A stretch of DNA of 64,000 nt, taken from contig JAJDBV010000028.1 of the NCBI GenBank assembly GCA_029261165.1, forward strand, positions 1 through 64,000. The letters are read 5' to 3'. Both the position numbers and the translations under genes were made by a program. This DNA is from Nitrospirota bacterium. Its GTDB lineage: Bacteria > Nitrospirota > Nitrospiria > SBBL01 > JAADHI01. Within the stretch, counting starts at the first letter, position 1; each line of letters begins with the position of its first letter. The notes under the pieces are model-generated. The model was given only the letters and a program-made list of their open reading frames with translations. It was not told the DNA's origin and searched no databases. Below, piece after piece: positions 4,169 through 63,440 of this stretch.

Positions 4169-4395
4169 AATCTACTGCGAGCGACTAATGCACTCAATGG
4201 ACACGATTTTCCAGAACGTTTCTCTCTCACCGTATGGGCACTCTTTTTATGTAACGGCTCAGCTCGGCCCTCTTTTCCTCCATGCCATCGTTCCTTCGGT
4301 GCTCGTAATCCTCACGTAGGAGAGCTACGCTCCGGTTCCTGTGCGCCTTGTGCCTTGGCCTGAAGGAAAACCCCACCCATCTGAACCGTTACTTG
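4168..4395. repeat. Dispersed repeat family B, copy 1
   Basis: ATCTACTGCGAGCGACTAATGCACTCAATGGACACGATTTTCCAGAACG...CTGAACCGTTACTT; close copy at 40857-41090. Confidence 0.8.
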
Positions 4396-4470
4396 GTTTT
4401 ACTCTCTAACACCGCCTAGAAAGATGGGGGTTGCGCTTGCTATACGTATTCTATATTTTGGAGAAAAATC

Positions 4471-4530
4471 CAGTCGGGTAAGGGAGGCGCAAAAAAAGCT
4501 GCCTTATAGGACGGGGATGATAATGTTAGC
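4471..4530 (+). repeat. R repeat copy 1 (CAGTCGGGTAAGGGAGGCGCAAAAAAAGCTGCCTTATAGGACGGGGATGATAATGTTAGC)
   Basis: Aligns with 9664-9721 and 10734-10790. Confidence 0.8.
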
Positions 4531-4562
4531 TTGCTAAAAAACAAAGAGAATAAGGAGAAAAT

Positions 4563-5333
4563 GTGAGTAACAATAATGCAACACGAAGGAAATATAAAAA
4601 GGATTTTCTAAAAGAAGTGATTGTTAGAATAGATTTTGATACTCCATTGCCTATAGCTATAAAGGGACCTGCGAAAAATATATACGATACAGTGAAAGAA
4701 CGATTTCCTATAACTGAAGAAAAAAAAGTTATGGGAAAAGAGCTTTTGATAGGGCCAGATGTGACAAAAGAACGTTCAATTGAATCGAAGGAATGGCACT
4801 ATTACGGGATAAATAGGGAGAAACACTTAACAATAACGCCTAATATGATGGTTATTGAATACAATAAATACAAATATTACGAAATGCTGCGGGAAGATTT
4901 CTTATCCGTTTCAGACGCTCTATTCAATGCTTACCCCAGATTACAGGTCAAGAGATTAGGGTTACGGTATATTGACAATATTGATATCCCCGGGGGAAAC
5001 CCTACGGAGTGGGATAAATATCTTAAGCCTGAATTAAACACTATATTTACTATCGCCGAAAACAAAGAAACAATATCAAGAGCTTTTCATGTTTTGGAGT
5101 TTAATTATGGAGAGGATTTTCTTAGGTTTCAATTTGGGATGTTTAACCCTGATTATCCGGCTCCAATAAAGAAAAAAATATACACGCTGGATTATGATAT
5201 GTATGTAACAAAATTATTGGACAAAACAGATATAGGGGAAACCCTAGATCATTTTCATGAAAAAGTTAATCGTTTTTTCGAGGAAATAATTACGGGTAAT
5301 TTACGAAAAATCATGGAGCCTTTAGATGGATAA
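4563..5333 (+). CDS. TIGR04255-family-like protein (GTG start)
   Basis: Resembles the sporadically distributed TIGR04255 family (LKEVIVRIDF, VKRLGLRYIDNIDIP). Confidence 0.6.
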   Translation: MSNNNATRRKYKKDFLKEVIVRIDFDTPLPIAIKGPAKNIYDTVKERFPITEEKKVMGKELLIGPDVTKERSIESKEWHYYGINREKHLTITPNMMVIEYNKYKYYEMLREDFLSVSDALFNAYPRLQVKRLGLRYIDNIDIPGGNPTEWDKYLKPELNTIFTIAENKETISRAFHVLEFNYGEDFLRFQFGMFNPDYPAPIKKKIYTLDYDMYVTKLLDKTDIGETLDHFHEKVNRFFEEIITGNLRKIMEPLDG

Positions 5334-5517
5334 AGAATCAGTATTTTCAGCTGAGTATGACATTAACAATACTACCGACTCCCAATCATCTATACAGGAG
5401 AAGAGTCCTGTGTCGAAAGATAAAGAAAAGAATGAAGTTTTAAATAAAATTGAATCGGATTATGACCTCTCCAAACCCAGACGTAAATTAATTCGTGCCA
5501 GGATTATCCGGAGATGA
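5326..5517 (+). CDS. Small hypothetical protein, translationally coupled
   Basis: Overlaps both neighbours; charged, basic C terminus. Confidence 0.5.
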   Translation: MDKESVFSAEYDINNTTDSQSSIQEKSPVSKDKEKNEVLNKIESDYDLSKPRRKLIRARIIRR

Positions 5518-6074
5518 AAAATGTAAGAATTCGGAAAAGAGCGCGAATATCCCAAGGAGATATTTATAAGGATGTTGAATTTATAGAGTATGCAATTGAA
5601 AAAGCGGGCGTGATTGAAATTTCAAAAATTATTTTCCCCTTTGTAGTTGTACTCACGCAAGATTGCGACCTAAATCAAGATTATACAGTTCGTTGGGCAA
5701 AGAACGGGGCTTCTAATCATGATAAAAAAATAATTTCAGTCATTGTTGCTCCTTTATACAATGTAGAATATGTTTATAGTGGCGAGCATCTATCTGAGTT
5801 AAATATGACTATGGCAGAAATTAAGAAAGAAAAAACACCAGGAAATACCCTAAGACAAAATAAAACCCCTCGGTATCATTATCTAGAATTTCCTCCTAGT
5901 GTGCCTATTGTTTCATCTGTATTAGATTTTAAACATTACTTTACAGTAAATGTGGAGTACTTAAAAAAACATAAAAAGGCAAATTTTATTTGTCAGATAG
6001 GGCCACTTTATAGGGAAGATGTGTCACAAAGATTTTCTAGTTATTTATCACGGATAGGTCTTCCAGAAAAATGA
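5514..6074 (+). CDS. Hypothetical protein with FPFVVVLTQDCDL motif, partner of TIGR04255-like protein
   Basis: ATGA overlap with upstream ORF; no recognised family. Confidence 0.6.
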   Translation: MKNVRIRKRARISQGDIYKDVEFIEYAIEKAGVIEISKIIFPFVVVLTQDCDLNQDYTVRWAKNGASNHDKKIISVIVAPLYNVEYVYSGEHLSELNMTMAEIKKEKTPGNTLRQNKTPRYHYLEFPPSVPIVSSVLDFKHYFTVNVEYLKKHKKANFICQIGPLYREDVSQRFSSYLSRIGLPEK

Positions 6075-6078
6075 AACA

Positions 6079-6138
6079 AGCTAACAATATGCTGCACACG
6101 GACTCGCTAACTGCTCGTCAGTGAGCGCACCGTTAGTG
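6079..6138 (+). other. attC-like integron recombination site 1
   Basis: GCTAAC...GCTGCAC...GTGAGC...GTTAG; GCT(G)CAC/GTGAGC pair with one extrahelical base, as in attC L boxes. Confidence 0.5.
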
Positions 6139-6185
6139 TCATATACGAGATTCGTAATACAGGATCGATAGAAGGCACTTATGTC

Positions 6186-9100
6186 ATGAATAGGAGCACC
6201 TTGATCCACAGCGCCCTTCAAGACTTTGCCGCTGCGGTAACGTCCAAGATGACGCAATTGACCGCCGGTGAGCCGGAAGACCAGGTGCGTGGGCCTTTCG
6301 AAAACTTCATTGGGGGCGTGGCTACCGCCTTAGGCTGGAACGTCGTCTGTACCGGCGAAACGCCCTTGCCCGGACGCCTCGGCCGTCCCGATTATGCCAT
6401 CCATCTCAACCAACTGCTCGCCGGATACGTCGAACTCAAGGCCCCCGGCGTGGGCGCGACCGCAAGCCGCTTCAAGGGCCACAATCGCGACCAGTTCAAA
6501 CGATTCTCGGCCATTCCTAATATCCTCTATACCGACGGAAACGAATGGGCGCTCTACCGCGGCGGTGAACTGGTGGACAAAGTCGTTCGTCTTTCGGGCG
6601 ACGTTGCCGCCGACGGCAAGAAGGTCGCCACACCCCAGAACGCCCACGCCGTCGAACGCCTCTTGCGCGTTTTCCTCTCATGGCAGCCCTTCATCCCAAC
6701 CGACCGCAAGGGCAAGATTGACCTCAAGGGCTTCGCCGACCTCATCGCCCCGCTTTGCCGGATGCTGCGCGAAGACGTAACCGACGCGCTCAAAGACCCG
6801 GCATCACCACTCGTCCAGCTCGCAAAAGACTGGCGGCAATTGCTCTTTCCCGACGCGCCGGACCAGCAATTCGCCGACGCCTACGCCCAAACCGTTGCCT
6901 TCGCCCTTCTTCTTGGGCGCAGCGAAGGGGCCGATCCGCTCACGCTTGACAGTGCCGAAGCCGCCCTCGCCGCCCAGCACAATCTTCTTTCCCGCGCCCT
7001 GCAAGTCCTAACCGACCCTAGCGCACGCGCTGAAATCGCCGCCTCGCTCGATCTGCTCCTGCGCGTCATTGCCGTGGTGCCCCCCGCCACGCTCACTGGC
7101 CCTGAAGACCCCTGGCTTTACTTTTACGAGGACTTCCTCGCCGCCTACGATCCAAAATTGCGCAAGGACGCCGGGGCCTACTATACTCCAGTCGAGGTCG
7201 TCCGCGCCCAGGTCCGCTTGATCGATGACCTGCTCGTTAACCGCCTGAACAAGCCGCTGGGGTTCGCCGACCCCGGCGTCGTCACGCTCGACCCCGCAGC
7301 CGGTACGGGCACCTATCTGCTCGGCGTCATCGAACACGCCCTAGGCCGTATCGAAGCCGAACAGGGGGCGGGCGCCGTCGCAGGGCAGGCCACCGCCTTG
7401 GCCAACAACCTCTACGGCTTCGAACTCATGGTCGGCCCCTATGCCGTGAGTGAACTCCGCGTCAGTCGCGCCCTGCTCGACCGTGGCGCGGCGCTGCCTA
7501 AAGACGGAACGCACGTTTATCTGACTGACACACTCGAAAGCCCCCACGCCAAACCACCTCAATTGCCACTGTTTCTCAAACCCATCGCCGAGCAGCACAC
7601 CAAGGCACTCAAGGTCAAAAGCAACGTCCCCGTCATCGTCTGCCTCGGTAATCCGCCCTACGACAGGCACGGTGCGGTGGATAGCGAAAACGAGCACAAC
7701 CTGTCTCGATATGGTGGATGGGTTCGTTTTGACGACCCTTTAGCAGATGATACGAAAAAAGACAAGAGAGGAAAGCAGAGGAAACTCAAAACGGCCCAAG
7801 CCAGGTTGGCGGAAAGACAGCGCCGCTCGATTCTCCGAAGTTTCATTGATCCCGCCACCGCCGCTGGGCACGGCGTCCACGTCAAGAACCTCTACAACCT
7901 CTACGTCTATTTCTGGCGCTGGTCGCTCTGGAAGGTCTTCGAGCATAAGACGGCCCACGGCCCGGGCGTCGTCAGTTTCATAAGCGCCTCAAGTTATCTC
8001 GACGGCGACGCCTTCTGCGGGATGCGCGAGCATATGCGCCGACAGTGTGATGAGGTCTGGATTCTCGACCTCGGAGGAGAGGGGCGTGGCACGCGCCAGA
8101 CCGACAACGTCTTCGCCATCCAGACACCCGTTGCCATCGCCGTGGCGGTCCGCACGAAGAAGGCGAAGAAGGACAAGCCCGCCGAGGTCCATTACGCACG
8201 GATCGAAGGATCGCGCAACGCCAAACTCGCCAAACTCGACGCCATCGCCGATCTCTCGAAAGTGAATTGGAGGATCTGCCACGGCGACTGGCAGGCTCCG
8301 TTCCGCCCGGAGGGCAAGGGCGGTTATTTCGGCTGGCCGCTCCTGACGGACCTAATGCCTTGGCAGCCAACAGGTGTAATGGCTGGAAGAACATGGGTGA
8401 TTGCGCCAACTCATGAGTACCTTCAAGAACGTTGGCGTCGCCTTATAAGTGTGTCGGCCAACGAGAGAGCCACGTTGTTCATCGAAAATGCGACTGGGAG
8501 AAAGATCACAGATAAGGCTCTTGCCTTACGCCCACCTCGTAACAGGCTGCCGGATATCCGATCTCTTCCCAAGAATGCACCCTCTCCAAGCATTGAACCT
8601 TTCGGATTCAGGTTTCTGGATAGGCAATTGATCGTGTCCGATGGGCGATTGATAGACCGCCCATGTCCTGACCTATGGGCCTGTATTTCAGCCAGCCAGA
8701 TATTCCTATCATCGCTTCTAAATCATCCTCTTGGTTCAGGACCGGCTCTGACTGCATTTGCAGATATTCCTGATAAGCACGCCTTTCGTGGTTCATACGG
8801 AGGGAAAAACGTCTTTCCTCTTTACCGCAATGCTGGCGCTTCGGAGGCCAACATCCTGCCCGGCCTGCTCGAATTTCTGTCCGTGACCTACTACAAGCGC
8901 AAGAAGGTGACGCAGGATGATTTTGTGGCCTACGTGTACGGCGTGCTGGCGCAGCCGGACTTTACGGCGCGTTTTCTCAAGGAACTAGAGACGCGCGAGC
9001 TTCGCGTGCCCATCACCAAGGATGCCGCACTGTTCGAGCAGGTCCGCGACGCAGGTGCGCGGCTGCTCTGGTTGCACACCTACGGCGAGCGCTTCGTTCC

Positions 9101-9581
9101 CAAGGGCAAGCAACGTGGCAATGTCCCGGTCGGCGCGGCGAAATGCATGAAGACCGTCCCTGGCCACGCCGACGGCTACCCCGAAGCATTCGAGTACAAC
9201 GACGCGACCCGAACGCTCCACGTGGGCGAGGGCGAGTTCGCGCCCGTCGCGCCGGAGGTCTTCGCCTTCGAGGTCTCGGGCCTCAAGGTCGTGCATTCGT
9301 GGCTCAAGTACCGCATGAAGAAAGGCGCGGGCAAGAAGTCGTCACCCCTCGACGATATCCGCCCCGAACGCTGGACCAGCCAGTTCACGACCGAACTGCT
9401 CGATCTCCTCAGGGTACTGGAAGCGACCATCGAGGGCTATCCCGAACAGGCGAAACTACTGGAAGCAGTCGTCGAGGGCGAATGCTTCCAAGCAGATGGA
9501 CTACCAGATGTTCCACACTGGATGCGCAAGCCACCGACCGACCGCGGAGGCGACCTGTTCGATGGGCTGGATGACAGCTAA
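6186..9581 (+). CDS. Single-polypeptide Type IIG-like restriction-modification enzyme (N6-adenine methylase plus PD-(D/E)xK-like N terminus)
   Basis: GRPDYAIHLNQLLAGYVELKAPG nuclease-like motif; LDPAAGTGTYLLGVIEHAL and GNPPYDR methylase motifs. Confidence 0.8.
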   Translation: MNRSTLIHSALQDFAAAVTSKMTQLTAGEPEDQVRGPFENFIGGVATALGWNVVCTGETPLPGRLGRPDYAIHLNQLLAGYVELKAPGVGATASRFKGHNRDQFKRFSAIPNILYTDGNEWALYRGGELVDKVVRLSGDVAADGKKVATPQNAHAVERLLRVFLSWQPFIPTDRKGKIDLKGFADLIAPLCRMLREDVTDALKDPASPLVQLAKDWRQLLFPDAPDQQFADAYAQTVAFALLLGRSEGADPLTLDSAEAALAAQHNLLSRALQVLTDPSARAEIAASLDLLLRVIAVVPPATLTGPEDPWLYFYEDFLAAYDPKLRKDAGAYYTPVEVVRAQVRLIDDLLVNRLNKPLGFADPGVVTLDPAAGTGTYLLGVIEHALGRIEAEQGAGAVAGQATALANNLYGFELMVGPYAVSELRVSRALLDRGAALPKDGTHVYLTDTLESPHAKPPQLPLFLKPIAEQHTKALKVKSNVPVIVCLGNPPYDRHGAVDSENEHNLSRYGGWVRFDDPLADDTKKDKRGKQRKLKTAQARLAERQRRSILRSFIDPATAAGHGVHVKNLYNLYVYFWRWSLWKVFEHKTAHGPGVVSFISASSYLDGDAFCGMREHMRRQCDEVWILDLGGEGRGTRQTDNVFAIQTPVAIAVAVRTKKAKKDKPAEVHYARIEGSRNAKLAKLDAIADLSKVNWRICHGDWQAPFRPEGKGGYFGWPLLTDLMPWQPTGVMAGRTWVIAPTHEYLQERWRRLISVSANERATLFIENATGRKITDKALALRPPRNRLPDIRSLPKNAPSPSIEPFGFRFLDRQLIVSDGRLIDRPCPDLWACISASQIFLSSLLNHPLGSGPALTAFADIPDKHAFRGSYGGKNVFPLYRNAGASEANILPGLLEFLSVTYYKRKKVTQDDFVAYVYGVLAQPDFTARFLKELETRELRVPITKDAALFEQVRDAGARLLWLHTYGERFVPKGKQRGNVPVGAAKCMKTVPGHADGYPEAFEYNDATRTLHVGEGEFAPVAPEVFAFEVSGLKVVHSWLKYRMKKGAGKKSSPLDDIRPERWTSQFTTELLDLLRVLEATIEGYPEQAKLLEAVVEGECFQADGLPDVPHWMRKPPTDRGGDLFDGLDDS

Positions 9582-9648
9582 CAAGGCAAATCCACTCGGA
9601 CAGCAATTCTGCTGCGCTCCATTTCCGCCGGGAGCTCCGACGTTACAA
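9576..9648 (+). other. attC-like integron recombination site 2
   Basis: AGCTAACAAGGCAAATCCACTCGGACAGCAATTCTGCTGCGC...GGGAGCTCCGACGTTAC; stop codon of the R-M gene lies inside the R box. Confidence 0.5.
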
Positions 9649-9663
9649 TCCCTTGAACGCAGG

Positions 9664-9721
9664 AGTCGGGTAGGGGAGGCGCAAAAAAAGATGCCTATTA
9701 GGACGGGTAGGATAATGTTTT
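9664..9721 (+). repeat. R repeat copy 2 (GAGTCGGGTAGGGGAGGCGCAAAAAAAGATGCCTATTAGGACGGGTAGGATAATGTTTT)
   Basis: Near-identical to copy 1. Confidence 0.8.
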
Positions 9722-9775
9722 GTGTTTTAAGAATACCCGGTTTCGACCCAAAGTGAACACTCATGTACTAAATAA

Positions 9776-10618
9776 ATGGTAATGAAAAAAATGGCAATGG
9801 AAAATTTATCTTCAGTGTTTATTGGTATAGTGGATATTTTAGGGCATAAAAAAGCCGAACAGCATATCGATCAATATGGTCCTCAAGCTGCTTCTGCCAA
9901 ACTTGGGGGAGTGTATAACACCTTGAATAAATATACGTTAGTTTACAATAATAATGATAATGGGGTTCGTTGGTTACAATATCTCGATGGTTACGTTTTC
10001 TATTCTGAAACAAACAATGTAGCGCACCTAGCTACAATGATCAAAGACGCGAGTAAACTAATCGCCCTATCCTTAATTGAATCAATACCGTTAAGAATTG
10101 CGATTACACAAGGTGATATTAAGATTATCAAATCAGATGAGGATGGTCTTTCAGTTACGGGTTCAGGGTGGACTGCGTTACAAAAATTAGAGAATTCCTT
10201 GGATTGGATGGGAGGCTGGTTGTATCTTCCCAGTTATGATAATCACCACCATCCAACGGTAACAAAGTTAATCAGTACGACACATCTCATTGTCCAGCAG
10301 AACTGTTGCTCGGAACCGACACAGAATTTTACAGCGCCGTTTAAAGGGAACAATACATATTCAGAAGAGAGAGCATGGTTCCTTAACTGGCATAAGGTTT
10401 TACATCAACAAAATCATGAAAACGAGAAGCTGATTAAGAATTGGTGGCTAAACTATACGCACGTTAATATTAATGGAAATCCAGATGTGCAACAAAAGCA
10501 AAAAAACACAATTGCGTTTGCACATTATTGCAACATTCTCTACCAGAGTGCCAACTTGATCTATCACTCCAAGGTAGTTCCTGATCTGAAAATAAGTGAA
10601 ATTAGTTCAAGTAATTAA
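9776..10618 (+). CDS. Hypothetical protein with nucleotidyl-cyclase-fold-like motifs
   Basis: FIGIVDILGHKKA, WLQYLDGYVFYSE and PLRIAITQGDI resemble the FVDILGF/FSDSI/RGAIS motif series of cyclase-like proteins. Confidence 0.45.
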   Translation: MVMKKMAMENLSSVFIGIVDILGHKKAEQHIDQYGPQAASAKLGGVYNTLNKYTLVYNNNDNGVRWLQYLDGYVFYSETNNVAHLATMIKDASKLIALSLIESIPLRIAITQGDIKIIKSDEDGLSVTGSGWTALQKLENSLDWMGGWLYLPSYDNHHHPTVTKLISTTHLIVQQNCCSEPTQNFTAPFKGNNTYSEERAWFLNWHKVLHQQNHENEKLIKNWWLNYTHVNINGNPDVQQKQKNTIAFAHYCNILYQSANLIYHSKVVPDLKISEISSSN

Positions 10619-10733
10619 AACAATATTTTCTGATAAATTTAATGGCTGATTTTGGCCTATAGCTGTCATGGGGGCAACATTTGGGCCTCTGGCAATTCCA
10701 TTCGTTTTTTAATCAAAGGGGAAGATCACCTCG

Positions 10734-10790
10734 GAGTCGGGGAGGGGAGCCAGAAAAAAAGGCTATTGAGGCGGGTAGGATAATATTAGG
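10734..10790 (+). repeat. R repeat copy 3 (GAGTCGGGGAGGGGAGCCAGAAAAAAAGGCTATTGAGGCGGGTAGGATAATATTAGG)
   Basis: Aligns with copies 1 and 2 with a short deletion. Confidence 0.75.
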
Positions 10791-10928
10791 CTTATTCGCC
10801 AGAAAAGCGTGAAATGGTTCCAATAGTCCTGATTTTTCTTGTGTTTGTTGTGTCGATGGTCCATTTTCCAAAACATTTCTCTCTCACCGTAAGAGCCAGC
10901 TTAAGATCCCACCTTAATGAATGAATCG

Positions 10929-11099: not shown

Positions 11100-14000
11100 A
11101 TGAGTAGTAAGTCGCCACAAGGGACAGTGAAGCAAACGAACAAGGTGTCCCGATCCTTGCGTCGCTCCTCTCTCATCCCAACCATTCTTCTAACATCGTT
11201 CATTACACTCCTCTTGATCATTACATCTTTTGCAACAGCACAAGCGGTGAGTCCTTCAAAGTTTGTTGTCCTGGGCGAAGAATCGGTTCGTATCAGAGAG
11301 GGGAGTTCCATCGCCAGTGGAGATATCGGTGCGAATCTCCCTAGTCCGGGACCACCTACAGGAGTAGGGCGGGTTGTCATCGACCGGGATGTGATCCTCC
11401 TTGACCCGACATCCCGTGTCATGGCCGATACTGTCGTGATAGATGGCGGGGCACAAGTCTATAACGTTCACTATAACGACCTGGTCTCCGATGGCGTGAT
11501 CTTAGGATCACAGATTACCCCGCTTTCCCTCCCACTGACAACCCTCCCGAGCATCCCTGTTTTTACAGAGGGCATCCCGGACATAGAAGTCCCCGATGAC
11601 AGCAGCCTCACGCTCGGAGCCGGAAGTTACGATTCCTTTACAGTCCGTTCGGGGGCGAGTGTCACCTTCACGGGTGGGATCTACAACTTTAAATCGTGGA
11701 ATATCCATAAAGGAGCAAGCCTCAGCTTCAATGCGCCAACCGAGATCCGAATCAAAGAGAAGCTTGAAGTAAAAGAAGGTGCCTCCATAGGGCCATCCCC
11801 AAGCAGTCCGGGCATCACGGGTGCCGATATCAAGATCATCATCACCGGGATCAACGGCCTTCTCGGGGGGGTTAATGAAATCCCTCAAGCCGCTTCCTTC
11901 GAGCGGATGGGATCTCTCCAGGCTAATGTCTATGTGCCCAACGGGACCTTGCTGATCGGGGACAGTTCGGTGATCACTGGGGCCTTCCTGGGTAAATGGG
12001 TTGATATCGGGAGATCCGTCTCACTGACCCATGAGGCGGCACGTTTTACCGGTCCAATGACCACCCCTCGTTCAGCCCACACTGCCACATTACTTCCTGA
12101 CGCTGGCATCCTGATCACCGGGGGTAAAAACGGGACCCTCCCTCTGGTCACCGCCGAACGCCTTGATCCGACGACCCTCACCTTTGGTCCGCTCACAGGC
12201 AACCTGGCAGCGGCACGCTCAGGTCACACTGCATCCGCTCTGGCCGATCAAACACACCTCCTCATTGCTGGAGAGAAAAGCGGGGGTACCCTGACCCTCT
12301 CAGAGCTCTTCCACCCGGGAACAGGCTTATTCTCTAACGTCATGGATACGCTTCGCATCCCCCGCGCCGGCCAGACTGCGACTGTTCTTTTGGATGGACG
12401 GGTCCTGATCATCGGAGGCCAGGAGACCGTCACGACCGATTCCTCAGAAGTCTTTGACGCCCAGAGCGTGATAATATTCAAACCCTCATTTGATCCGACT
12501 GAAGGGAGCTTCATCCTTTTGCCGAATCTCCTCTCCACACCACGTCGGAACCACACGGCGACACTCATGCCGGATGGAAGCGTCTTGATCATCGGAGGAG
12601 AGAACGACCTTGGATTGCTCGGCTCCGCCGAGCGCTTTGATCCAACAACAGAAACCTTTACGCCCTTAACGGCGTTAATGACCACCCCCAGAGCAGGCCA
12701 CACGGCAAACCTGCTGCCCGACGGACGTGTCCTGCTCTTAGGGGGAAGGGGGACAGCAGGCTTCCTGGACACTGCCGAGATATTTGATCCTGTTACCGGG
12801 ACCTTTTCCCCGACCACACCCGGTCTAATCATCCCGAGTGCCGAGCATACCGCGACACTCCTACCCTTTGGCGAGATCCTGATCACCGGAGGGGAGAACA
12901 GCACAGGCACGCTCTCCGCGACAAGCCTTTATGATCCCAAGTTGGTGGATACAACCCTACCCGCGGTAGCGGCACTCAGTCTCTCTGCCGGGGCAACCGA
13001 TGTTGATCTAACCGAAGTGATCGGGCTCCGATTCTCGGAGCCGGTGGATATCACAACACTGACGGGCGTCAACGTCTCTCTCTCAGGGGGTGGATCTCCA
13101 GCAAATGCCACCATAAGTGGCAGCGAAGAAGGCCTACTCGCCTTTATCGTCCCAACGACAAAACTAACTGCCGGGACTGTCTATACCTTGTCTCTTTCCC
13201 CGGCCATCACCGATACGTCAGGAAATTCCCTTGCACCGTTCTCTTCGACTTTCACGACCGTAAACGCCCCGGTCATCGCAACGGTCACGCCCGGTCATGG
13301 ACCGATCGGACAGGCCGTCACAATCACCGGCCAGAACTTTGACCCCTCGGCCCCGACATTGAATGTTGTTTCTTTTGAGGGGATCAATGCCTTGGTGACC
13401 TTGGCCACCGCAACGCTGCTGGAGGTCTCTGTCCCCTCCGGTGTCCCAACTGGGGTGGGAACGTTGACGGTAAAGACACGAGGCGGAACGGCGAGCATTC
13501 CTTTCACTATTGATAGCACGGCCCCCGTTCTGACCTCTCTTTCGCCGGTATCAGTCCCGGCGGGGAGTGCCGCCTTTACCCTGACACTTAACGGTAGTAA
13601 TTTCTTTGCAACCTCGACAGTTCAATTCGGGGCAACGACGCTTACATCAACCTTCATTAGTAACAGCCAGTTACAAGCCAGCATTCCGGCTTCGGCTATC
13701 GCATCTCCCGGAACAGTCCAGGTCACCGTGGTCAATCCGGCCCCGAACGGGGGGACCTCCAACGCGCTTGCTTTCGAAGTGATTGGCCCAGTCATTCAAA
13801 GCGTGACCCCCACAAGCGGTCCCGTCGGGACGCCGGTCACGATCACCGGACTGAACTTCGACCCAACCGCCTCTAATAATAATCTTTCCTTCAATGGTAC
13901 ATCAGCCATCATTACCTCGGCCACGACCACAGAGATCAAGACGACGGTCCCGTTAGGGGCGAGCACCGGTCCAATCTCACTCACCACACCAACCGGGACG

Positions 14001-17000
14001 GCAAGCGGCGGTACCTTTACGGTGGTCTTATCCGCAGACTTCTCAATAACGGCGTCTCCATTGTCCATTGATGTTGCCCCAGGAGGCCAAATTGCCATCC
14101 AGGTCCTCCTTTCTGGAGCGGGAGTTTCCCCTTATTCCGGCCTCGTCGGCTTGACCGTCGGGACCTTGCCCACGGGAGTCACCTCCTTTTTCTCGCCCTC
14201 AATCGGACAAACCGGCCAGGCATCGTTTCTCAACATCTTCACGCCCACAACCTTGGCGGCAGGTGCGTATCCGATAACAATACAAGCACAGGGCAATATC
14301 GACGGCCAGGCGATCACGCGTGTCGCAAATATCACCCTCAATGTCCTTCCTCCGGGAACAACCACCCTTTCGGGCCAGATACTGGCCTCCGAAACGGGCG
14401 ACCCTCTTGCAAATATTCTTGTGAAGACTGGCGGAACTACTGTCACGACCGATAGCGCGGGGAACTTTTTCTTTTCAAATATTTCGACAGGAACGCAGCT
14501 CCTGCTTATCGACGGCACCCCGGCGGGGACGGCTGTAGCTTCTTACCCGATTGATCTACCAGTCCAGGTAGATATCGTTGCAGGAACCAGTAATGTCCTT
14601 TCCTATCCAGTGTATCTGCATGAAGTGAATACAAAAAACTTCACCTTGCTGGATACAAGCCTGGGAGATGTGATTGTCTCCGATCCGGACATTCCTCTCT
14701 TTGAGCTCACCATTCCTCAGGGCACACAGATTATCGGGTGGGACGGGCTTCCGAATACAAAAATGTCGATTAAACGAGTTCCAATTGATCGGCTCCCACT
14801 CCCGCCGGTTTCTGGAGTCGCAACGACTAAAAGCGTCTACATGTTCCACTTTTTCAAAGCCGGGGGCGGGACGCCGACGGTCCCCATCCCCGTAAAATAC
14901 CCGAATGATGCTGGACTCGTACCCGGCACAAGTGTCGATCTTTATTATTATGATGAAGAACCCTTTGCCGATCCGACTTCACACCAGTGGAAAAAATTCG
15001 GGACGGGGACGGTTTCTTCCGATGCTCGCCAAATCGTGTCCGATCCCGGCGTCGGAATTCCAAAATTTTGCTGCGGCGGCGTCTTTGCAACCTGGGTAAT
15101 TGATGTCTTCAACGGTGACCCTACGCCCGACAATCCACCGAAAGGCGGCGATCCAGTTGATCTCTCTACAGGGACCTTCGGGCTCCAGAAAACGGACATG
15201 GTACTTCCGGGAATTTTCCCAACTCAATTGATCCGATATTATACCGCGCGAAACGAACCTCTGAATTCTCTCATACCGGGTCCCTTCGGTCCGGGAACAA
15301 ATCACAACTACAACCATCGACTAATTCCATTTGGAAACACAGATGAAGCCTTGCTCCTTCTCAAGGCTGATGATGGACGAGCGGTCTTTTCGATCAATCC
15401 GGATGGGACTTTCATAAACTTGACCACGCCATCGCTTAACGGGGTCGTCGTGAGTATTGGGGTGGGAGGTATTAGAACCCTCCGCTATAAAGACGGCAGG
15501 AAGTGGATTTTCTCCGACACGGGTTTCCTTATACGCGTTGAAGACCACATTGGGAATGGAGTGGATCTGATTCGCAACGATGGAATCTTAACAAAAATAG
15601 TCCAGCTGGGAGGCCGGGAAATCCTATTGGACTATGATAATTCATCACGCATTATAAGATTGACCGACCCCTTGGGGAGAGTGGTTCAATATACCTACGA
15701 TGGTACCGGGCTCTTAAATGCTGTAATCGATCCTGAGGGCGGGATAACCCGCTATACTTATGATGGAATAAAACGAATGACAACCATCACAGATGCCCGA
15801 GGGATACTCTTTTTGACCAATGAGTATGACAATAATGATCGGGTCATACGCCAGACCAATGCCGAAGGCGGTGTCTTTCAATTCTTCTATTTCGGGCCTG
15901 ATGGTCGTGCGCTACTTGATGTACCAGAAGTTATTTGGCTTCCGTTTAGAAACCCATTTTGCGGCCCCACAGAGGTGATTGATGCAGCAACGGCGATCCC
16001 ACCGGGAAGGCCCTGTGTCATTCGAAAAATTTGGCCCGGCCCAGCGGACAGTCTGGTTACACAGACCATTGTGATCGATCCGAAAGGAACCCCAAGCTCG
16101 TACCGCTTCACTACGGCGGGGTATCCAAGCGAAATCACAGACGCCTCAGGACGAACGACCCAATTTGAGCGGGCGAATGGAACGAATCAACTTATTTCTA
16201 CGACAGATCATTTGGATCGAAAGACAAGCTTTACCTATGATGCGTTTAATAACCTCCTGACCTCGACCGATCCCGAAGGCAATACAACCACCTTTACCTA
16301 TGAACCTAATTTTAATAAAGTTACGACCATTACGGATGCCCTGGCACAGGTGACGTCTTTTACCTACGATTTACAAGGAAATCTCCTGAGGACCACTGAT
16401 CCCTCCGGGGCGGTGACCACAATGACCTACAATGCCAAGGGTCAACCCATCACGGTTACCGATCCTCTAGCGAATATGACCCGCTTTAGTTACGATTCTT
16501 TTGGGGATCTCATCACGACCACAGACCCCCTCGGCAATATCACCTCCCGGGTTTACGATGCCGTCTCTCGACTTTTGGCGGTGACCGATCCGAGAGGAGA
16601 AAGCACCGGATTTATCTACGATAACCTCAATCGGGTCACCACAATAAACGATCCCGGAAACAATGCCACCCAGTTTACGTATGACCCTAATGGCAATCTC
16701 TTAACGGTTTCAGATGCGAATAACAATACAACGACTTATACCTATGACCTGCAAGACCGTCTGGACACAAGGACCGATCCATTATTAAGAAGTGAAACGT
16801 ACGCCTACGACCTCAACGGTAACCTGACAACCTTTACAGATCGGAAGGGACAGGTCACGATCTTTGCCTCCGATCCGCTTGATCGGAGAGTTAGAGCAGA
16901 CTATGCCGATGTGGCACAAACCGGGTTTGTCTACGATACAGCAGGCAGGCTGGATGAGATCATAGAAGGGACATCGACGATTAAATTTACCTACGACAAT

Positions 17001-18443
17001 CTGGATCGGCTGGCCTCGGAGCTCACGTCGCAAGGGGTGTTGTCCTATACCTATGATGCCCTGGGAAGAAGAACCTCCATGGCGGTGAATGGTGGTCTGC
17101 CTGTGAATTATCAGTACGATCTTAACTCCCGCCTGACACAGGTGGCACAGGGGTCACAGATTGTAGGTCTGGGATATGATGTTTCTGGAAGAAGAACCAG
17201 TCTGAGTTATCCAAACGGGACCAGTACGAGTTATGCCTATGACGCGGCCAGTCGAATCACTAATATTACCCATAAGGCAGGAGTAACCCCATTTGAGCGT
17301 TTGACCTATACCTATGATGCGGCGGGCAACCGGACAAGTCTGGATCGGACGAATGGCTCCGCCATCTTATTGCCAGATGCAGTTCAAGCTGCTTATGACG
17401 CTGCGAATGAACAGATCAGGCTTAATAGTACCACACCGAATTTGAATTATGATGCGAATGGAAATTTGCTTTCTCAGACCGATGCGAGCGGGACGACGAA
17501 CTATACTTGGGATGCGCGGAATCGACTGATGGGCATCACCGGGCCGACGACAACGGCCAGCTTTGTTTATGATGCCCTGGGGCGAAGGACGAGTAAAACC
17601 ATCAACGGCGTTAAGACCGATTATCAGTATGATGGGAATGACATTGTTTCTGAGATCGGCGGCGGGGCGGTTGGGGCAAGTTATATAAGATCTTTGAATA
17701 TTGATGAGCCGTTTGTGCGGCAGTCGAGTGGGAATGAATATTATCATGTGGATGCTTTGGGGAGTACGCTGGATCTGACAGATCAGAGTGGTGCTGTTGT
17801 AACGACCTATGAGTATGAAGCATTCGGGAAGACCACGATAAATGGGACCTCATTAAATCCGTTTCAGTATACGGGAAGAGAAAATGATGGTACGGGGCTG
17901 TACTATTATAGGGCTAGGTATCATAGTGGCTTGCTACAAAGATTTATTAGTCAAGATCTAATTTGGTTTGGCGATTTTAATCTTTATGCGTATGTAAAGA
18001 ATCAACCCATCAGATATTTTGATCCATTTGGGTTGGCATATTTTGCAAAGAGACCCTTAAATCCCCTTTTTCTTATGATCAACAGTCCACTGCTTGATTT
18101 GTTAAATCTAGAAGCAAGTCATGAGCAGCTAATATTTGAGGATGGAGAACTGCCTAGCAGTAAAGGACAGCCTAGCAATTTAGGATTTTTCCTGGATGGT
18201 GTGGGCGAAGATCCACATTTTGGGGAATATCAAGATAAATATAAAAAAGTAGGTCGTAAGTATGATGATGCTTTGATGCGTAAGGTTGTTAAAGAAGTAG
18301 AGCCAAAAACTTACTGTGTCGTAAGGAATAATTGTCAAGATTGGGCAGATAAAGTTCGCGAAAAATACAAAGAATTGGAGAATAAGAAAAACCGACGTCT
18401 TTGTTTAAATTTTGGCGGCCGCAAATCTAAGCTTTGTTCATGA
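11100..18443 (+). CDS. Giant exported RHS/YD-repeat protein with kelch-like and IPT/TIG repeats, RHS core and C-terminal tip domain
   Basis: N-terminal hydrophobic segment; repeated LLPDGRVLIxGG; YTYDxxGNL repeats; YYRARYHSGLLQRFISQD and RYFDPFG core; unique tip HEQLIFEDG...NNCQDWADKVREKY. Confidence 0.9.
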   Translation: MSSKSPQGTVKQTNKVSRSLRRSSLIPTILLTSFITLLLIITSFATAQAVSPSKFVVLGEESVRIREGSSIASGDIGANLPSPGPPTGVGRVVIDRDVILLDPTSRVMADTVVIDGGAQVYNVHYNDLVSDGVILGSQITPLSLPLTTLPSIPVFTEGIPDIEVPDDSSLTLGAGSYDSFTVRSGASVTFTGGIYNFKSWNIHKGASLSFNAPTEIRIKEKLEVKEGASIGPSPSSPGITGADIKIIITGINGLLGGVNEIPQAASFERMGSLQANVYVPNGTLLIGDSSVITGAFLGKWVDIGRSVSLTHEAARFTGPMTTPRSAHTATLLPDAGILITGGKNGTLPLVTAERLDPTTLTFGPLTGNLAAARSGHTASALADQTHLLIAGEKSGGTLTLSELFHPGTGLFSNVMDTLRIPRAGQTATVLLDGRVLIIGGQETVTTDSSEVFDAQSVIIFKPSFDPTEGSFILLPNLLSTPRRNHTATLMPDGSVLIIGGENDLGLLGSAERFDPTTETFTPLTALMTTPRAGHTANLLPDGRVLLLGGRGTAGFLDTAEIFDPVTGTFSPTTPGLIIPSAEHTATLLPFGEILITGGENSTGTLSATSLYDPKLVDTTLPAVAALSLSAGATDVDLTEVIGLRFSEPVDITTLTGVNVSLSGGGSPANATISGSEEGLLAFIVPTTKLTAGTVYTLSLSPAITDTSGNSLAPFSSTFTTVNAPVIATVTPGHGPIGQAVTITGQNFDPSAPTLNVVSFEGINALVTLATATLLEVSVPSGVPTGVGTLTVKTRGGTASIPFTIDSTAPVLTSLSPVSVPAGSAAFTLTLNGSNFFATSTVQFGATTLTSTFISNSQLQASIPASAIASPGTVQVTVVNPAPNGGTSNALAFEVIGPVIQSVTPTSGPVGTPVTITGLNFDPTASNNNLSFNGTSAIITSATTTEIKTTVPLGASTGPISLTTPTGTASGGTFTVVLSADFSITASPLSIDVAPGGQIAIQVLLSGAGVSPYSGLVGLTVGTLPTGVTSFFSPSIGQTGQASFLNIFTPTTLAAGAYPITIQAQGNIDGQAITRVANITLNVLPPGTTTLSGQILASETGDPLANILVKTGGTTVTTDSAGNFFFSNISTGTQLLLIDGTPAGTAVASYPIDLPVQVDIVAGTSNVLSYPVYLHEVNTKNFTLLDTSLGDVIVSDPDIPLFELTIPQGTQIIGWDGLPNTKMSIKRVPIDRLPLPPVSGVATTKSVYMFHFFKAGGGTPTVPIPVKYPNDAGLVPGTSVDLYYYDEEPFADPTSHQWKKFGTGTVSSDARQIVSDPGVGIPKFCCGGVFATWVIDVFNGDPTPDNPPKGGDPVDLSTGTFGLQKTDMVLPGIFPTQLIRYYTARNEPLNSLIPGPFGPGTNHNYNHRLIPFGNTDEALLLLKADDGRAVFSINPDGTFINLTTPSLNGVVVSIGVGGIRTLRYKDGRKWIFSDTGFLIRVEDHIGNGVDLIRNDGILTKIVQLGGREILLDYDNSSRIIRLTDPLGRVVQYTYDGTGLLNAVIDPEGGITRYTYDGIKRMTTITDARGILFLTNEYDNNDRVIRQTNAEGGVFQFFYFGPDGRALLDVPEVIWLPFRNPFCGPTEVIDAATAIPPGRPCVIRKIWPGPADSLVTQTIVIDPKGTPSSYRFTTAGYPSEITDASGRTTQFERANGTNQLISTTDHLDRKTSFTYDAFNNLLTSTDPEGNTTTFTYEPNFNKVTTITDALAQVTSFTYDLQGNLLRTTDPSGAVTTMTYNAKGQPITVTDPLANMTRFSYDSFGDLITTTDPLGNITSRVYDAVSRLLAVTDPRGESTGFIYDNLNRVTTINDPGNNATQFTYDPNGNLLTVSDANNNTTTYTYDLQDRLDTRTDPLLRSETYAYDLNGNLTTFTDRKGQVTIFASDPLDRRVRADYADVAQTGFVYDTAGRLDEIIEGTSTIKFTYDNLDRLASELTSQGVLSYTYDALGRRTSMAVNGGLPVNYQYDLNSRLTQVAQGSQIVGLGYDVSGRRTSLSYPNGTSTSYAYDAASRITNITHKAGVTPFERLTYTYDAAGNRTSLDRTNGSAILLPDAVQAAYDAANEQIRLNSTTPNLNYDANGNLLSQTDASGTTNYTWDARNRLMGITGPTTTASFVYDALGRRTSKTINGVKTDYQYDGNDIVSEIGGGAVGASYIRSLNIDEPFVRQSSGNEYYHVDALGSTLDLTDQSGAVVTTYEYEAFGKTTINGTSLNPFQYTGRENDGTGLYYYRARYHSGLLQRFISQDLIWFGDFNLYAYVKNQPIRYFDPFGLAYFAKRPLNPLFLMINSPLLDLLNLEASHEQLIFEDGELPSSKGQPSNLGFFLDGVGEDPHFGEYQDKYKKVGRKYDDALMRKVVKEVEPKTYCVVRNNCQDWADKVREKYKELENKKNRRLCLNFGGRKSKLCS

Positions 18444-19495: not shown

Positions 19496-19897
19496 TTGAA
19501 GGCTATGATGACAATTAGCCTCGGGATTCATCCTTCCAGATATGTTAAAAATAATCTCCGGACCACCACGGATCCCCTCGGGAATGTCACCTCCCGGGTT
19601 TACGATACCGTCTCTCGTCTTTTGGCGGTAACCGATCCGAGAGGAGAAACCACCGGTTTTATCTACGATAACCTCAACCGGGTCACCACAATAAACGATC
19701 CCGGAAACAATGCCACCCAGTTTACGTATGACCCTAATGGCAATCTTTTAACGGTTTCAGATGCGAATAACAATACAACGACTTATACCTATGACCTGCA
19801 AGACCGTCTGGATACAAGAACCGATCCATTGTTAAGGAGTGAATCGTATCTCTATGATCTCACAGAAGTGGACCCCGGAAATGGGACAGTGGCATAA
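19496..19897 (+). pseudogene. RHS repeat fragment duplicating 16510-16814
   Basis: Near-identical DNA and protein over about 300 bp (offset 3047), ending at the IS3-like left end. Confidence 0.8.
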
Positions 19898-37893: not shown

Positions 37894-40857
37894 ATGTTCA
37901 TGTTGAGACGACTTAGGACTTTCTCCATCTTGTTTTTCTTATTGACGCTGATCTCTTGTGGAAGTAGCGGTGGGGATGCGCCGTCAAGAAGACCCTCGGC
38001 AACGGTTGACGGCTTTGCTGTCGATGCGCAGATTACCGGCGGGAGCGTTACCGTATATTCATACATAAACGCTCAAAAAGGATCTGTTCTCGGGTCGGCG
38101 GTCACGGATGATACAGGGTTTTACAGCATCACATTGCAGGGACCCGACCAGCCAATTCTGATTGAGGTCAGAGGCGGCTCCTACATCGAGGAGGCGAGCG
38201 GAGCGGGGATTACCCTTAATGATGGCCAGATCCTTCGGGCGGTCACTTTTTACAAGTCAGGGTTCCCTGTCCGTTTGATGGTCACGCCCTTCACCAACAT
38301 TACGGCAGGCTTGATTGAATATCAGACGAAGTCGGGGACACCTGTAGAAATTGCCATTACGGATGCCACGTCAGCGATCTCAGCGATGGCTGGAGTCGAT
38401 ATTCTGACCACCGTACCGCTGAATATTACCGACTTGAAAAATGCAAGGATGAGCTTAACGGCTGGATTAAAGTACGGGTTTCTGGCTGCAGCAATATCAA
38501 GCTGGACGGCTGAAGCGAGTGTGCTCAATGGAGCGAATGTTCATTTAATTTGGAATTCGATCTCCTTATCGCAGGTGATGTATAGGGATATTTCTGAGGA
38601 TGGCTTGCTTGACGGGAAGGGGATCAACCCAAATAGCGGCACAATCGTTGATCTTGGATTTGGGCTCGTTCCGCTTGACGCCAATACCTATCGCGTTGAA
38701 TTCGCCCGGCATTTAATGAAGATGGCCGGAAGTGAAGAGAATAAGACGGGGATTGGATTTTCCGAGGTGCTTTTAGAGGCTGATCGACTGGCCGGGATGA
38801 CACACCAGATATTTAATGGTCTTCCGACAGTTCCCCTGGATACGACAGGGCCGGTCATTGATCCGATTGAGGCAGAGGGGCTGTTTCATAATGACAGCTT
38901 GACCTTTGCTGTGGATGTTTCTGATACCGTCGGGATTAAATCGGTTTTCTTTGACCTTGATGGCGTCGCTATCGGCCAGGCGATTGATCCTCAAAACCCT
39001 GCTGTTTTAATCAATACCAATTTGTACACAGATGGCGGGCATACTATCGGTGTGAGGGCGACTGACAATCTTGAAAACGAAACTTACCGTCAGTTTGCGA
39101 TCAAGTTTGCCAACAGCGGCGCAGTTGTGAACGTTCTCTCCTCCACCACAGTAAATAGTTCACCCGTCATCCTTTCAGGAGATTATATTGATAACGGAGT
39201 AGGGATTCAATCGATTACGGTCCAAGGTTTGCCAGCCGATATCAATGCTGTTGATAAGACCTGGAATGTTTCAATTCCTCTGGTTCCACCGAATCCGACG
39301 CAATCAGCGGCTTTTGTGAAAACAGTGCCGATTGTGATTAAAGATAACCTTGATATTGAAAATACTAAACTCGTCACGGTTACGATGGACACGATTAAAC
39401 CCGCAATTGATCCATTCTATAGTGTTGCTACCTTCGTAGTAGGGACAGATACTTTTACCGAAAGTCTTTCTTTTGCGGCTACATCAGGTATTCCACTCCG
39501 AATTGAGACAGACAAGATCTCCTTGAATGGGGTACCAATTCTTGAGGGGGCTCTCGGGATAAACTTCATTCCATACATTGTTATTCATGTTAATGACCCG
39601 AACGTAAACGCAGTTTTTACCCCAGAGAATGAAATTACAGCGGACATTCAATATAAATTAAAGGGATCTATTGTGGCTCCTTGGCATTCTCTTGTTCCAG
39701 TTGATACTGCCAATAATTATCGGTTTATTATCCCTCTTGTTTCTGAGTTGCTTCATCCAGACTGGCAATTGGCAACACCTCAAGACCAACATGAGATAGA
39801 AATAAGAATTAAAGATAGGGCCGGCAATGCAACTGATCTTAGGTTTCCGTTTCAAGCTGAATTTGTGCCACCGCCCCCGGTGGTCACATCAACTGCAATA
39901 AATGCTTTTAATAAACCGTTTCCTAATCGGGCGGAACTTTACGGGAAAGTCCTTTCGGTTTCAGAACATCTCATTTCAAACAACACAAACTTTCCAATCC
40001 TTTTTTCTCTTTCTGACCCTGCAATCCATACAGTGGTAAAGGTTGCCGAGGAAGCGGTTCGAAAACTTGAAGGCAATAAAATCACGCAAGAAGATTGGCG
40101 GATACAATACCGTTATTGGCTCATAAAGATGTTTGACGTGCCGATTCAAGTAATGGAAGATCCAAACGCCACCTGGCAATCAACCACGAGTGTAGACTTA
40201 AAAAATAAAGACCCGAATACTGGTGCCATCACGCAAACAACGGTCTCCCCAAACCTCCCCGCAACAGGACCCACAATATCATTTCCAACGGAACAACTCC
40301 CTCTCTCTACAAGCACACTCTGGGAATCCTTTCATCCTCCTCTTGCAGATACTACCGGGATGAACTATTTTGGACCAATACCTTCGGGCGACCCTCGAAT
40401 ATTAGCCACATTCGCCTACTTTCCTTCAGCCGGGAATTTCTTGCAAAGGCGGACAGTAACGTCTTATCAATGGGCTACAGGGTCTCCAAGGAATGAATAT
40501 CTTCTCTTTTCCGAAACCAATAATTTCCTAACGGATCATTTTGAAGTAAGAAATAATGTCGGAGAGCGGAAGCTTTCAATAAACGGATTTTATCGAATCC
40601 CGCCAAAAACAACCTATACGATCAATAAATATGTACTAACCCCTCAACTAACATTTTATAATGACACCGAAGTCGGAAACCGCGAAACCTTCGTAAGCGC
40701 CACCCCGAAGAAATATGACCTTTCCATTGCATGGACAATTAACAACCAGATCGACATCAAAATTGTTCACGATACAGGTTTTGAGAAGGCTTTAGAGATG
40801 GTCGCGGTTGATGTGGTTCGGGGGGGTACACCGGCCACATATACCATAACCCGCTGA
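37894..40857 (+). CDS. Large lipoprotein (987 aa) with Ig-like repeats
   Basis: Lipobox LISC; DTTGPVIDPIEAEG and repeated Ig-like segments. Confidence 0.65.
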   Translation: MFMLRRLRTFSILFFLLTLISCGSSGGDAPSRRPSATVDGFAVDAQITGGSVTVYSYINAQKGSVLGSAVTDDTGFYSITLQGPDQPILIEVRGGSYIEEASGAGITLNDGQILRAVTFYKSGFPVRLMVTPFTNITAGLIEYQTKSGTPVEIAITDATSAISAMAGVDILTTVPLNITDLKNARMSLTAGLKYGFLAAAISSWTAEASVLNGANVHLIWNSISLSQVMYRDISEDGLLDGKGINPNSGTIVDLGFGLVPLDANTYRVEFARHLMKMAGSEENKTGIGFSEVLLEADRLAGMTHQIFNGLPTVPLDTTGPVIDPIEAEGLFHNDSLTFAVDVSDTVGIKSVFFDLDGVAIGQAIDPQNPAVLINTNLYTDGGHTIGVRATDNLENETYRQFAIKFANSGAVVNVLSSTTVNSSPVILSGDYIDNGVGIQSITVQGLPADINAVDKTWNVSIPLVPPNPTQSAAFVKTVPIVIKDNLDIENTKLVTVTMDTIKPAIDPFYSVATFVVGTDTFTESLSFAATSGIPLRIETDKISLNGVPILEGALGINFIPYIVIHVNDPNVNAVFTPENEITADIQYKLKGSIVAPWHSLVPVDTANNYRFIIPLVSELLHPDWQLATPQDQHEIEIRIKDRAGNATDLRFPFQAEFVPPPPVVTSTAINAFNKPFPNRAELYGKVLSVSEHLISNNTNFPILFSLSDPAIHTVVKVAEEAVRKLEGNKITQEDWRIQYRYWLIKMFDVPIQVMEDPNATWQSTTSVDLKNKDPNTGAITQTTVSPNLPATGPTISFPTEQLPLSTSTLWESFHPPLADTTGMNYFGPIPSGDPRILATFAYFPSAGNFLQRRTVTSYQWATGSPRNEYLLFSETNNFLTDHFEVRNNVGERKLSINGFYRIPPKTTYTINKYVLTPQLTFYNDTEVGNRETFVSATPKKYDLSIAWTINNQIDIKIVHDTGFEKALEMVAVDVVRGGTPATYTITR

Positions 40858-41090
40858 ATCTACTACGAGCGCCTCATGCACTCAATGGACACGACTTTCC
40901 AGAACATTCCTCACTCACCGTATTAATACCCTTTATATGTAACGGTTCAACTCGGCCCGCCTTTCCTCCATGCCATCGTTCCTTCGGCGCTCGAAATCCT
41001 CACGTAAGAGGACTACGCTCCGGTTCCTGTGCGCCTTGTGCCTCAGCCTGAAGGAAAATCCCACCCATCTGAACCGTTACTTCATTTCAT
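40857..41090. repeat. Dispersed repeat family B, copy 2
   Basis: High similarity to 4168-4395. Confidence 0.8.
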
Positions 41091-48753: not shown

Positions 48754-49803
48754 CTAAACAATCATGACGTTATATCCTTCGGCTAATCGAAACTGCCATT
48801 GGCCCTCAATCTTCCAAAATAAAAAGGTATATCCGTCAATACGTAAATCGTCAAAATATTTGTATTTAATCAGTACAAGGGCTCGCGTACGATCTGGGTT
48901 CAAGGCTACCTCTCCAAAAGTTAAGTCGATCGGAAGCTTCTTCTCCGTCTCCCAAATCTTATCAACGACTCTATGGATGGGGAAATAGGACTCATGGCTT
49001 CCCGGTCTTGCTTCCACATCCCGCTGATAATATGACACTTGGTGGCCCGGTTTGACCGGCTTCCCTTTTTCGGTGTTTTCAAGGACCATCCAGGGGGTAA
49101 GACGTTCAAAGGTGGCCATAAACTCCAGAACGAGCTCTCGGATGGCCTCTTCATCCGGCATCTCCGGAGGTTGCGTAAACTCGGGTCCGCCCCGGTTGAG
49201 CCAGTCCATAGCCCCCTCATATTGTAGAAAGGCCTTGTCGAAGTCTCTTTGCGGGTAGGGGGCATGCTCCGGCGAGGCCATTACAAGCTGATCTTGCCAA
49301 AATTGGAGATACGGGAGATACTCCGATTGGCCTGCAAGGACTTTAGGAATAAAGGCCCGGTTGAAACCTTGTCGCGGTATCGGGAGCTCCTTTTCTATTT
49401 CTACATAATCCTTACACCTTGGGTCGGTGAGGTTCACCACATGAAGGCAGACTTTTAGCCTTGCCAGCATGGTTACGTCAGAGCGATCAAATAAGAGATC
49501 CATTAGCTCAGTCGACCCTCCATCCTCAAAATACATCAGGGTCTCTGAGATCACTCCGACGTCCCACCCGTCCCCTTGTTTTATGGCCTCCTTCAAGCGA
49601 GAATACAGGACCGGAATCATCTCATCTCCAAGACGAAAGAGCTGAAAAAGGCTTTCATCGTGATACTTCTTATAATTATCCCGATCAATGAGTCGGTCCA
49701 CCAGTTGCTCTTCTCTCGTCTTCTCACTCAACTCCTCTGCATGCCCCAGAGATACCGACAGGCTGGCGAACACAAAAACTAGAACCAAGATCCTTCTCAT
49801 CAT
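48754..49803 (-). CDS. Exported hypothetical protein, paralogue of next
   Basis: Signal peptide; long similarity with 49812-50903. Confidence 0.65.
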   Translation of the reverse strand: MMRRILVLVFVFASLSVSLGHAEELSEKTREEQLVDRLIDRDNYKKYHDESLFQLFRLGDEMIPVLYSRLKEAIKQGDGWDVGVISETLMYFEDGGSTELMDLLFDRSDVTMLARLKVCLHVVNLTDPRCKDYVEIEKELPIPRQGFNRAFIPKVLAGQSEYLPYLQFWQDQLVMASPEHAPYPQRDFDKAFLQYEGAMDWLNRGGPEFTQPPEMPDEEAIRELVLEFMATFERLTPWMVLENTEKGKPVKPGHQVSYYQRDVEARPGSHESYFPIHRVVDKIWETEKKLPIDLTFGEVALNPDRTRALVLIKYKYFDDLRIDGYTFLFWKIEGQWQFRLAEGYNVMIV

Positions 49804-49811
49804 TATTATTC

Positions 49812-59757: not shown

Positions 59758-59905
59758 GAATCTACTACGAATGCCTCATGCATTCAATGGACACGATTTT
59801 CCAGAACATTTCTCTCTCACCGTATAGACACATACGCCTCCGCTCAAAACAACCTGGAAAATTCCGTCCCTCAAACACCTTAGTCGCTCTCGCTACGATT
59901 CAACT
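59758..59905. repeat. Dispersed repeat family B/C, copy 3
   Basis: GAATCTACTACGAATGCCTCATGCATTCAATGGACACG. Confidence 0.8.
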
Positions 59906-63176: not shown

Positions 63177-63440
63177 TGAATCTACTGCGAGTGCCTCATG
63201 CACTCAATAGAAATGATTTTCCTGAACATTTCTCACTCACCGTATAGACACATACGCCTCCGTTCAAAACAACCTATAAAACCCCGTCCCTCAAGCACCT
63301 TAGTCACTCTCGCTACGATCCTATATTTTGCAGGTGCTTACCCGGCTTTTCCTCCATGCCATCGTTTTTGCGGTGCTCATAATCCTCACGTATAGACCCG
63401 CACGCTGCTATTTCTCCGCTCCTCGTGCCCTGCCCTGAAG
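63177..63440. repeat. Dispersed repeat family B/C, copy 4
   Basis: GAATCTACTGCGAGTGCCTCATGCACTCAATAG... and family C tail. Confidence 0.8.

Follow-up and report, generated by a model that had tools for sequence, protein, structure and literature searches.

The window, the 64,000-nucleotide stretch of DNA analyzed here, belongs to a 68-kb contig that carries genes for ParA, ParB and a RepA-type initiator, for a TraC/VirB4-like protein and, with a weak match, for a VirD4-like protein. The ends of the contig show no overlap; it is likely a plasmid. On the forward strand, three copies of a ~56-bp repeat, called R1, R2 and R3 here, flank two blocks of cargo genes (Table 1), as an earlier note made from the letters of this DNA had described. 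A model of the repeat family finds exactly these three copies and no fourth in the 64-kb window. The common ending GATAATRTTA claimed for them is present in two of the three, while R2 ends in GATAATGTTTT. R1, used as a query against the whole genome, matched R2 (E 6.8e-15) and also a copy located on contig C42 (E 1.7e-6). R3 scored E 1.8e-8 with the family model, a value inflated by the inclusion of R3 in the training set. Folded as single strands, the repeats are not significantly better than shuffled sequences on either strand, an Rfam scan of the window gave no match, and neither did a blastn search of R1 against a plasmid collection.

Table 1. Features of the repeat-flanked region, in positions of the window; a slash within a sequence marks the crossover.
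Feature	Position	Strand	Remarks
R1, putative attI copy 1	4472-4527	+	crossover G at 4525; 89% identical to R2 over 56 nt (ungapped comparison), 81% to the copy beside intI on contig C42
Cassette 1, 1607 bp	4526-6132	+	TIGR04255 gene and two smaller ORFs
TIGR04255 family protein, 256 aa	4563-5333	+	NCBIfam TIGR04255, 126 bits (cut-off 30)
186-aa protein	5514-6074	+	ORF; no family match
attC of cassette 1	6077-6138	+	bottom strand folds; circular form -17.4 kcal/mol, long R''/R' stem
Cassette 2, 3510 bp	6133-9642	+	Type ISP restriction-modification gene
Type ISP/IIG restriction-methyltransferase, 1131 aa	6186-9581	+	Type_ISP_C, 245 bits; PADLOC REase_MTase_IIG, 1119 bits
attC of cassette 2	9571-9648	+	circular form folds at -18.2 kcal/mol, bottom strand
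R2, putative attI copy 2	9664-9719	+	crossover G at 9717
Possible cassette 3 or attI-gene-attI unit	9718-10704	+	boundaries uncertain
280-aa protein	9776-10618	+	ORF; no family match above cut-off
R3, putative attI copy 3	10735-10787	+	A replaces the crossover G (ATAATA/TTAGG); ~74% identical to R2 (74% over 47 nt, ungapped comparison)

The first block had been described as one operon around a TIGR04255-like gene followed by a restriction-modification gene. These contents were correctly labeled, the first by the score given in Table 1 and the second as a single-chain Type ISP/IIG enzyme, whose relatives in the PDB include LlaBIII and LlaGI, but the division of the block into two separate cassettes had been overlooked. 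The first bases of an integron cassette are the TT that follows the crossover G, and at its other end is an attC site, whose first arm is complementary to the start of the same cassette because both arms lie in one hairpin of the free circle. Such a cassette start is found directly behind R1: GTTAGCTTG at 4525 is an exact 9-nt complement (9/9) of CAAGCTAAC at 6077, right after the last ORF of cassette 1. Similarly, the start of cassette 2, GTTAGTGTCAT at 6132, pairs with ATGACA(G)CTAAC at 9571 through eleven pairs with one bulged base. Both attC sites, whose hairpins are long and imperfect, were recognized by this arm complementarity and by folding of scripted circles, not by a published attC profile such as that of IntegronFinder. 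The same rule is obeyed by the cassette on contig C42 (GTTAGATTT and AAATCTAAC), by the first cassette of another genome of the family, G003 (GTTAGAGGT and ACCTCTAAC), and by two copies of the repeat in G003 that have no intI. As a control, the start was shifted to 91 other positions: a complement of at least 8 nt is present at the true crossover in 7 of 14 copies, whereas the shifted positions averaged 0.7 such copies and reached 5 at most. For two of the 14 copies the downstream search was limited to 99 bp, and one of the seven (on contig C4 of this genome) has its complement inside an ORF, where it may be chance.

The attI site of an integron is located between intI and the first cassette, and this position is held by the repeat in two intact loci, on contig C42 of this genome and on contig C36 of G003. 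On C42, a small ORF follows the copy immediately, and the start of a divergent ORF of 350 aa immediately precedes it. The 350-aa protein is an integron integrase (IntI), matching TIGR02249 over the full profile length with 492 bits against a cut-off of 265; it is the only integron integrase over the cut-off in this genome, and its best solved relative is IntI4 (PDB 2a3v). The IntI of G003 is 75% identical to that of C42, and the corresponding place there is occupied, in the same orientation, by CGCAATTAAATACGGCAATTGGGCCGTATAGTATATG/TTAG, an R-like but diverged sequence; the match is weak by sequence alone (E 0.46 over 66 kb), and the site is regarded as the attI counterpart from its position and from the cassette behind it, not from its score. 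In an alignment, nine copies have in common an A-rich block, a GGC-type block and a CG, and they end in TATA(A)TG/TT, with few exceptions. The G/TT crossover with a cassette joined to it is seen at R1 and is uncertain at R2, and R3 has lost the G to an A. Taking these likenesses and positions together, the repeat is best read as the attI-type integron site of this lineage. The earlier note, which had proposed a modular insertion or cassette site with defense-like content, was essentially right, and the repeat that it did not recognize can now be named. Random scatter of the repeat, by which its author would have abandoned the idea, is not what is seen: the copies lie at the crossover edges of cassettes in the window and beside integrase genes. 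When the attI model was compared with 80 distant integron-integrase loci, no convincing match was found, which indicates that the site is lineage-specific; attI sequences outside the order are too diverged for matching.

Other origins of such an array have to be considered. Copies in a single orientation around cargo might be transposon ends or remnants, or members of a MITE-like dispersed repeat that flank cargo by chance, and a separate dispersed repeat family is indeed present at 4169-4394; the block has, however, no transposase and no matching inverted ends around it, and the rule relating cassette start and attC arm holds exactly at the repeat edge, with G/TT junctions, so that this origin appears very improbable. 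Iteron-type repeats of a plasmid origin are another candidate, as the array is located ~300 bp behind repA and thus consists of direct repeats near a replication initiator gene. This candidate is hardly tenable when it is considered that the same sequence also neighbors intI elsewhere, on a second contig as well as in related genomes, that the copies are kept apart by kilobase cargo, and that contigs of G003 and G014 with repA homologues have no R copy behind them. On those two contigs ParA-ParB-RepA is conserved (RepA identity 77% in G003 and 64-66% in G014) and the sequence behind repA is unrelated; the region is thus not syntenic everywhere, whereas it was synteny everywhere that had been named beforehand as fatal to the idea of a cassette site. 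Comparison with the window gave no clean empty site holding just one copy, the sequence behind the repA homologues being not alignable. At a copy on contig C55 of genome G006, HIT and LapA are conserved in all of the family genomes (8/8); farther out, the four genomes inspected differ from one another, with no clean junction at the copy.

The dispersed repeat family has 226-bp copies at 4169-4394 and 40857-41082, which are 89% alike, and partial copies at 10863-10894, 59759-59831 and 63179-63251; genome-wide, at least 41 sites match one of its two halves. The widespread half, which starts at ~4251, has hairpin-like ends. Contigs C19, C21, C27 and C64 have the first 73 bp, and a truncated copy lies just behind R3. 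There are two further duplications in the window. In the large RHS-repeat gene (11100-18443), a 287-bp stretch at 16515-16801 recurs downstream of the gene at 19562-19848 with 94% identity, a pattern suggestive of displacement of an older RHS end, and 48754-50903 contains two adjacent paralogous genes, with no function assigned, that share ~80% identical DNA over 689 bp.

A profile search found no integron integrase over the cut-off on the contig, and a search of 4170-4600, around R1, for a Pc of the sigma-70 type found no such site. Of the parts of a complete integron, the locus has an attI heading cassettes and lacks an integrase in cis and a recognizable sigma-70-type Pc; like a CALIN, it has at least two attC sites close together, as judged from arm complementarity and folding, and no integron integrase nearby. 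The best explanation, to which a probability of about 0.88 is given, is that the repeats are three attI copies of the lineage's integron, sited on a plasmid-like contig that has no gene for an integron integrase, and that the cargo was captured as circular cassettes. As far as can be judged from its sequence, the window holds an integron cluster that lacks an integrase, and the contig around it has genes for conjugation and for plasmid replication. In such a cluster, IntI would join the folded bottom strand of the attC of a cassette to attI at G/TT, and a captured cassette would then begin right behind the attI core and end in its own attC. Because no integron integrase is encoded on the contig, the IntI encoded on C42 would have to act on the window sites in trans, or to have done so in an ancestor. 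The three copies would have arisen from a single attI: they differ from the other attI copies in having no promoter and in a private 5' part common to them (AGTCGGG...), from which it appears that they probably multiplied locally. R3, which has no evident cassette behind it, is probably inactive.

Alternatively, the cluster may be a fossil of a full integron that once resided on this replicon, from which intI was deleted and in which attI and a few cassettes were later duplicated, with no service in trans today. The two explanations agree on the attI identity of the repeat; what separates them is solely whether the sites are active at present. The family does provide cases of intI loss. Beside hemC, the probable ancestral position of the integron, G007, G005 and G002 have a neighboring intI (loci L178, L180 and L181), whereas the attI copy of G003 there, on its contig C42 (L177), has a cassette and no intI; G006 has a decayed intI remnant on contig C43. 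Within the window, the decayed look of R3 and attC3 speaks for a fossil. Against it, R1, attC1 and attC2 look intact and the genome has an intact IntI; an intI remnant was not found in the window, where only an unrelated tyrosine recombinase matched weakly. On balance, a fossil is a serious possibility, with somewhat less than an even chance.

The second block, between R2 and R3, is more ambiguous. Its 280-aa protein had been called cyclase-like, a label that found no backing in Pfam, PADLOC or PHROG, and the only NCBIfam hit is sub-threshold and to an unrelated family. No convincing attC was found in 9718-10704, where only a 7-nt complement appears if the start is shifted to 9725. The block may be a decayed cassette, or else an attI-gene-attI unit as described for class 1 integrons (PMC12901181). 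The attI-gene-attI architecture is present at R2-gene-R3, and no circle or empty site was seen. Excision of an attI1-gene-attI1 unit reached 100% in an assay (PMC12901181); the A that R3 has in place of the crossover G may thus be the reason why the array is stable.

Copies of attI are not restricted to this contig. A sequence-only model built from nine attI copies was run on 18 genomes of the order and detected five more genuine-looking copies beyond the training set: two in genome G004 and one each in G006, G012 and contig C4 of this genome. E-values of the copies used for building the model are inflated by construction, and the five new copies are independent support; three of them are at E 0.009 to 0.03, and the case for them rests also on their structure. 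In all five, the crossover is preceded at ~75 bp by a -35/-10-like element (TTGAC...TATAC type, degraded to varying extents). In G004, the search for IntI relatives gave no hit. The copy on C4 (L175 2345-5497), the fifth attI-like copy of this genome, has the promoter-like element and heads an Mrr-type restriction gene; in G003, the copy on contig C32 heads a GmrSD-type gene and that on contig C42 a gene without assigned function. Most copies outside the window's contig also have the motif GCCGTATTT 119-123 bp before the crossover. This motif lies in the first codons of intI at intact loci and has unrelated sequence to its left in the intI-free copies; it is a poor match in the C4 copy and has no match in the C42 copy of G003. 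G012, from another family of the order, repeats the layout of the window: next to a decayed start of intI, its contig C88 (L147 316-1545) has three tandem Pc-attI units, the first two of which are separated by gene-like DNA.

These dispersed copies could represent a multiplying module, or repeated loss of intI. In a more specific form of the former, a ~122-bp Pc-attI module with GCCGTATTT at its left edge would multiply as intI-free landing pads on chromosome and plasmid, which take up and express cassettes via IntI in trans, and the triple attI of the window would be a plasmid version without the promoter; this form is, at present, rather unlikely. The three copies in the window, which have captured cassettes, one with a restriction enzyme, on a contig where no integrase gene is nearby, suggest that docking sites (attI) can multiply apart from the enzyme using them. 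The two attI copies of G004, on contigs C35 (end of L173) and C65 (start of L174), are 95.7% alike over 233 bp and each lies ~97 bp from a contig end; the assembly of G004 probably breaks in repeated cassette DNA. Two other candidates were rejected: an R-like hit at C67:47396 is attributed to chance, being inside a 760-aa ORF and not reaching the crossover, and a match in IMG/VR to a fragment of R (L120) extends over ~22 nt at most, inside a coding region, and looks like chance.

The usual view is of attI as one site with a fixed place next to intI. A lineage in which defense-like cassettes are headed by tandem and scattered attI copies would be a direct test case for a split integron, in which the integrase is in one place and several landing sites are elsewhere, including plasmids that possibly carry cassettes between hosts. 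Searches restricted to attC and intI would overlook the attI sites that head clusters of this kind. Among the open-access papers searched, which are a part of the literature, no report was found of tandem full-length attI without an integrase or of genome-scattered attI, such as the copies described here, most of which carry a promoter-like element when outside this contig.

Several known systems resemble parts of this arrangement. Clusters of cassettes (CALIN) and single cassettes (SALIN) without an integrase are established (PMC9024848, PMC9229058, PMC12444791, PMC12690207), and integrase-less cassettes have also been reported on a conjugative plasmid (PMC12444791). The window resembles them in that its cassettes have attC sites and an integrase in cis is absent; the definition of CALIN and SALIN, however, concerns attC only, whereas the cluster in the window is headed by and interspersed with three attI copies. 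Class 1 and class 2 integrons are known to contain cassettes with attI remnants at their boundaries (PMC12901181). In these attI-gene-attI or delta-attI cassettes a gene is located between attI sequences, as may be the case for R2-gene-R3, but the integrase is in cis and the attI remnants are mostly short, while the window has three diverged copies of 53-57 bp without an integrase. Off-target recombination by integrons is also known, and insertion at attG-type secondary sites likewise places cassettes outside the integron platform (PMC10127599); those sites are short chance sequences, whereas the site in the window is a homologue of the host's own attI. With the ordinary chromosomal integron on C42, finally, the cluster shares the attI sequence, the cassette start rule and the attC hairpins, and it differs in having neither intI nor a recognizable Pc in front of R1. 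The repeat is not a new kind of element, and its arrangement is an unusual variant.
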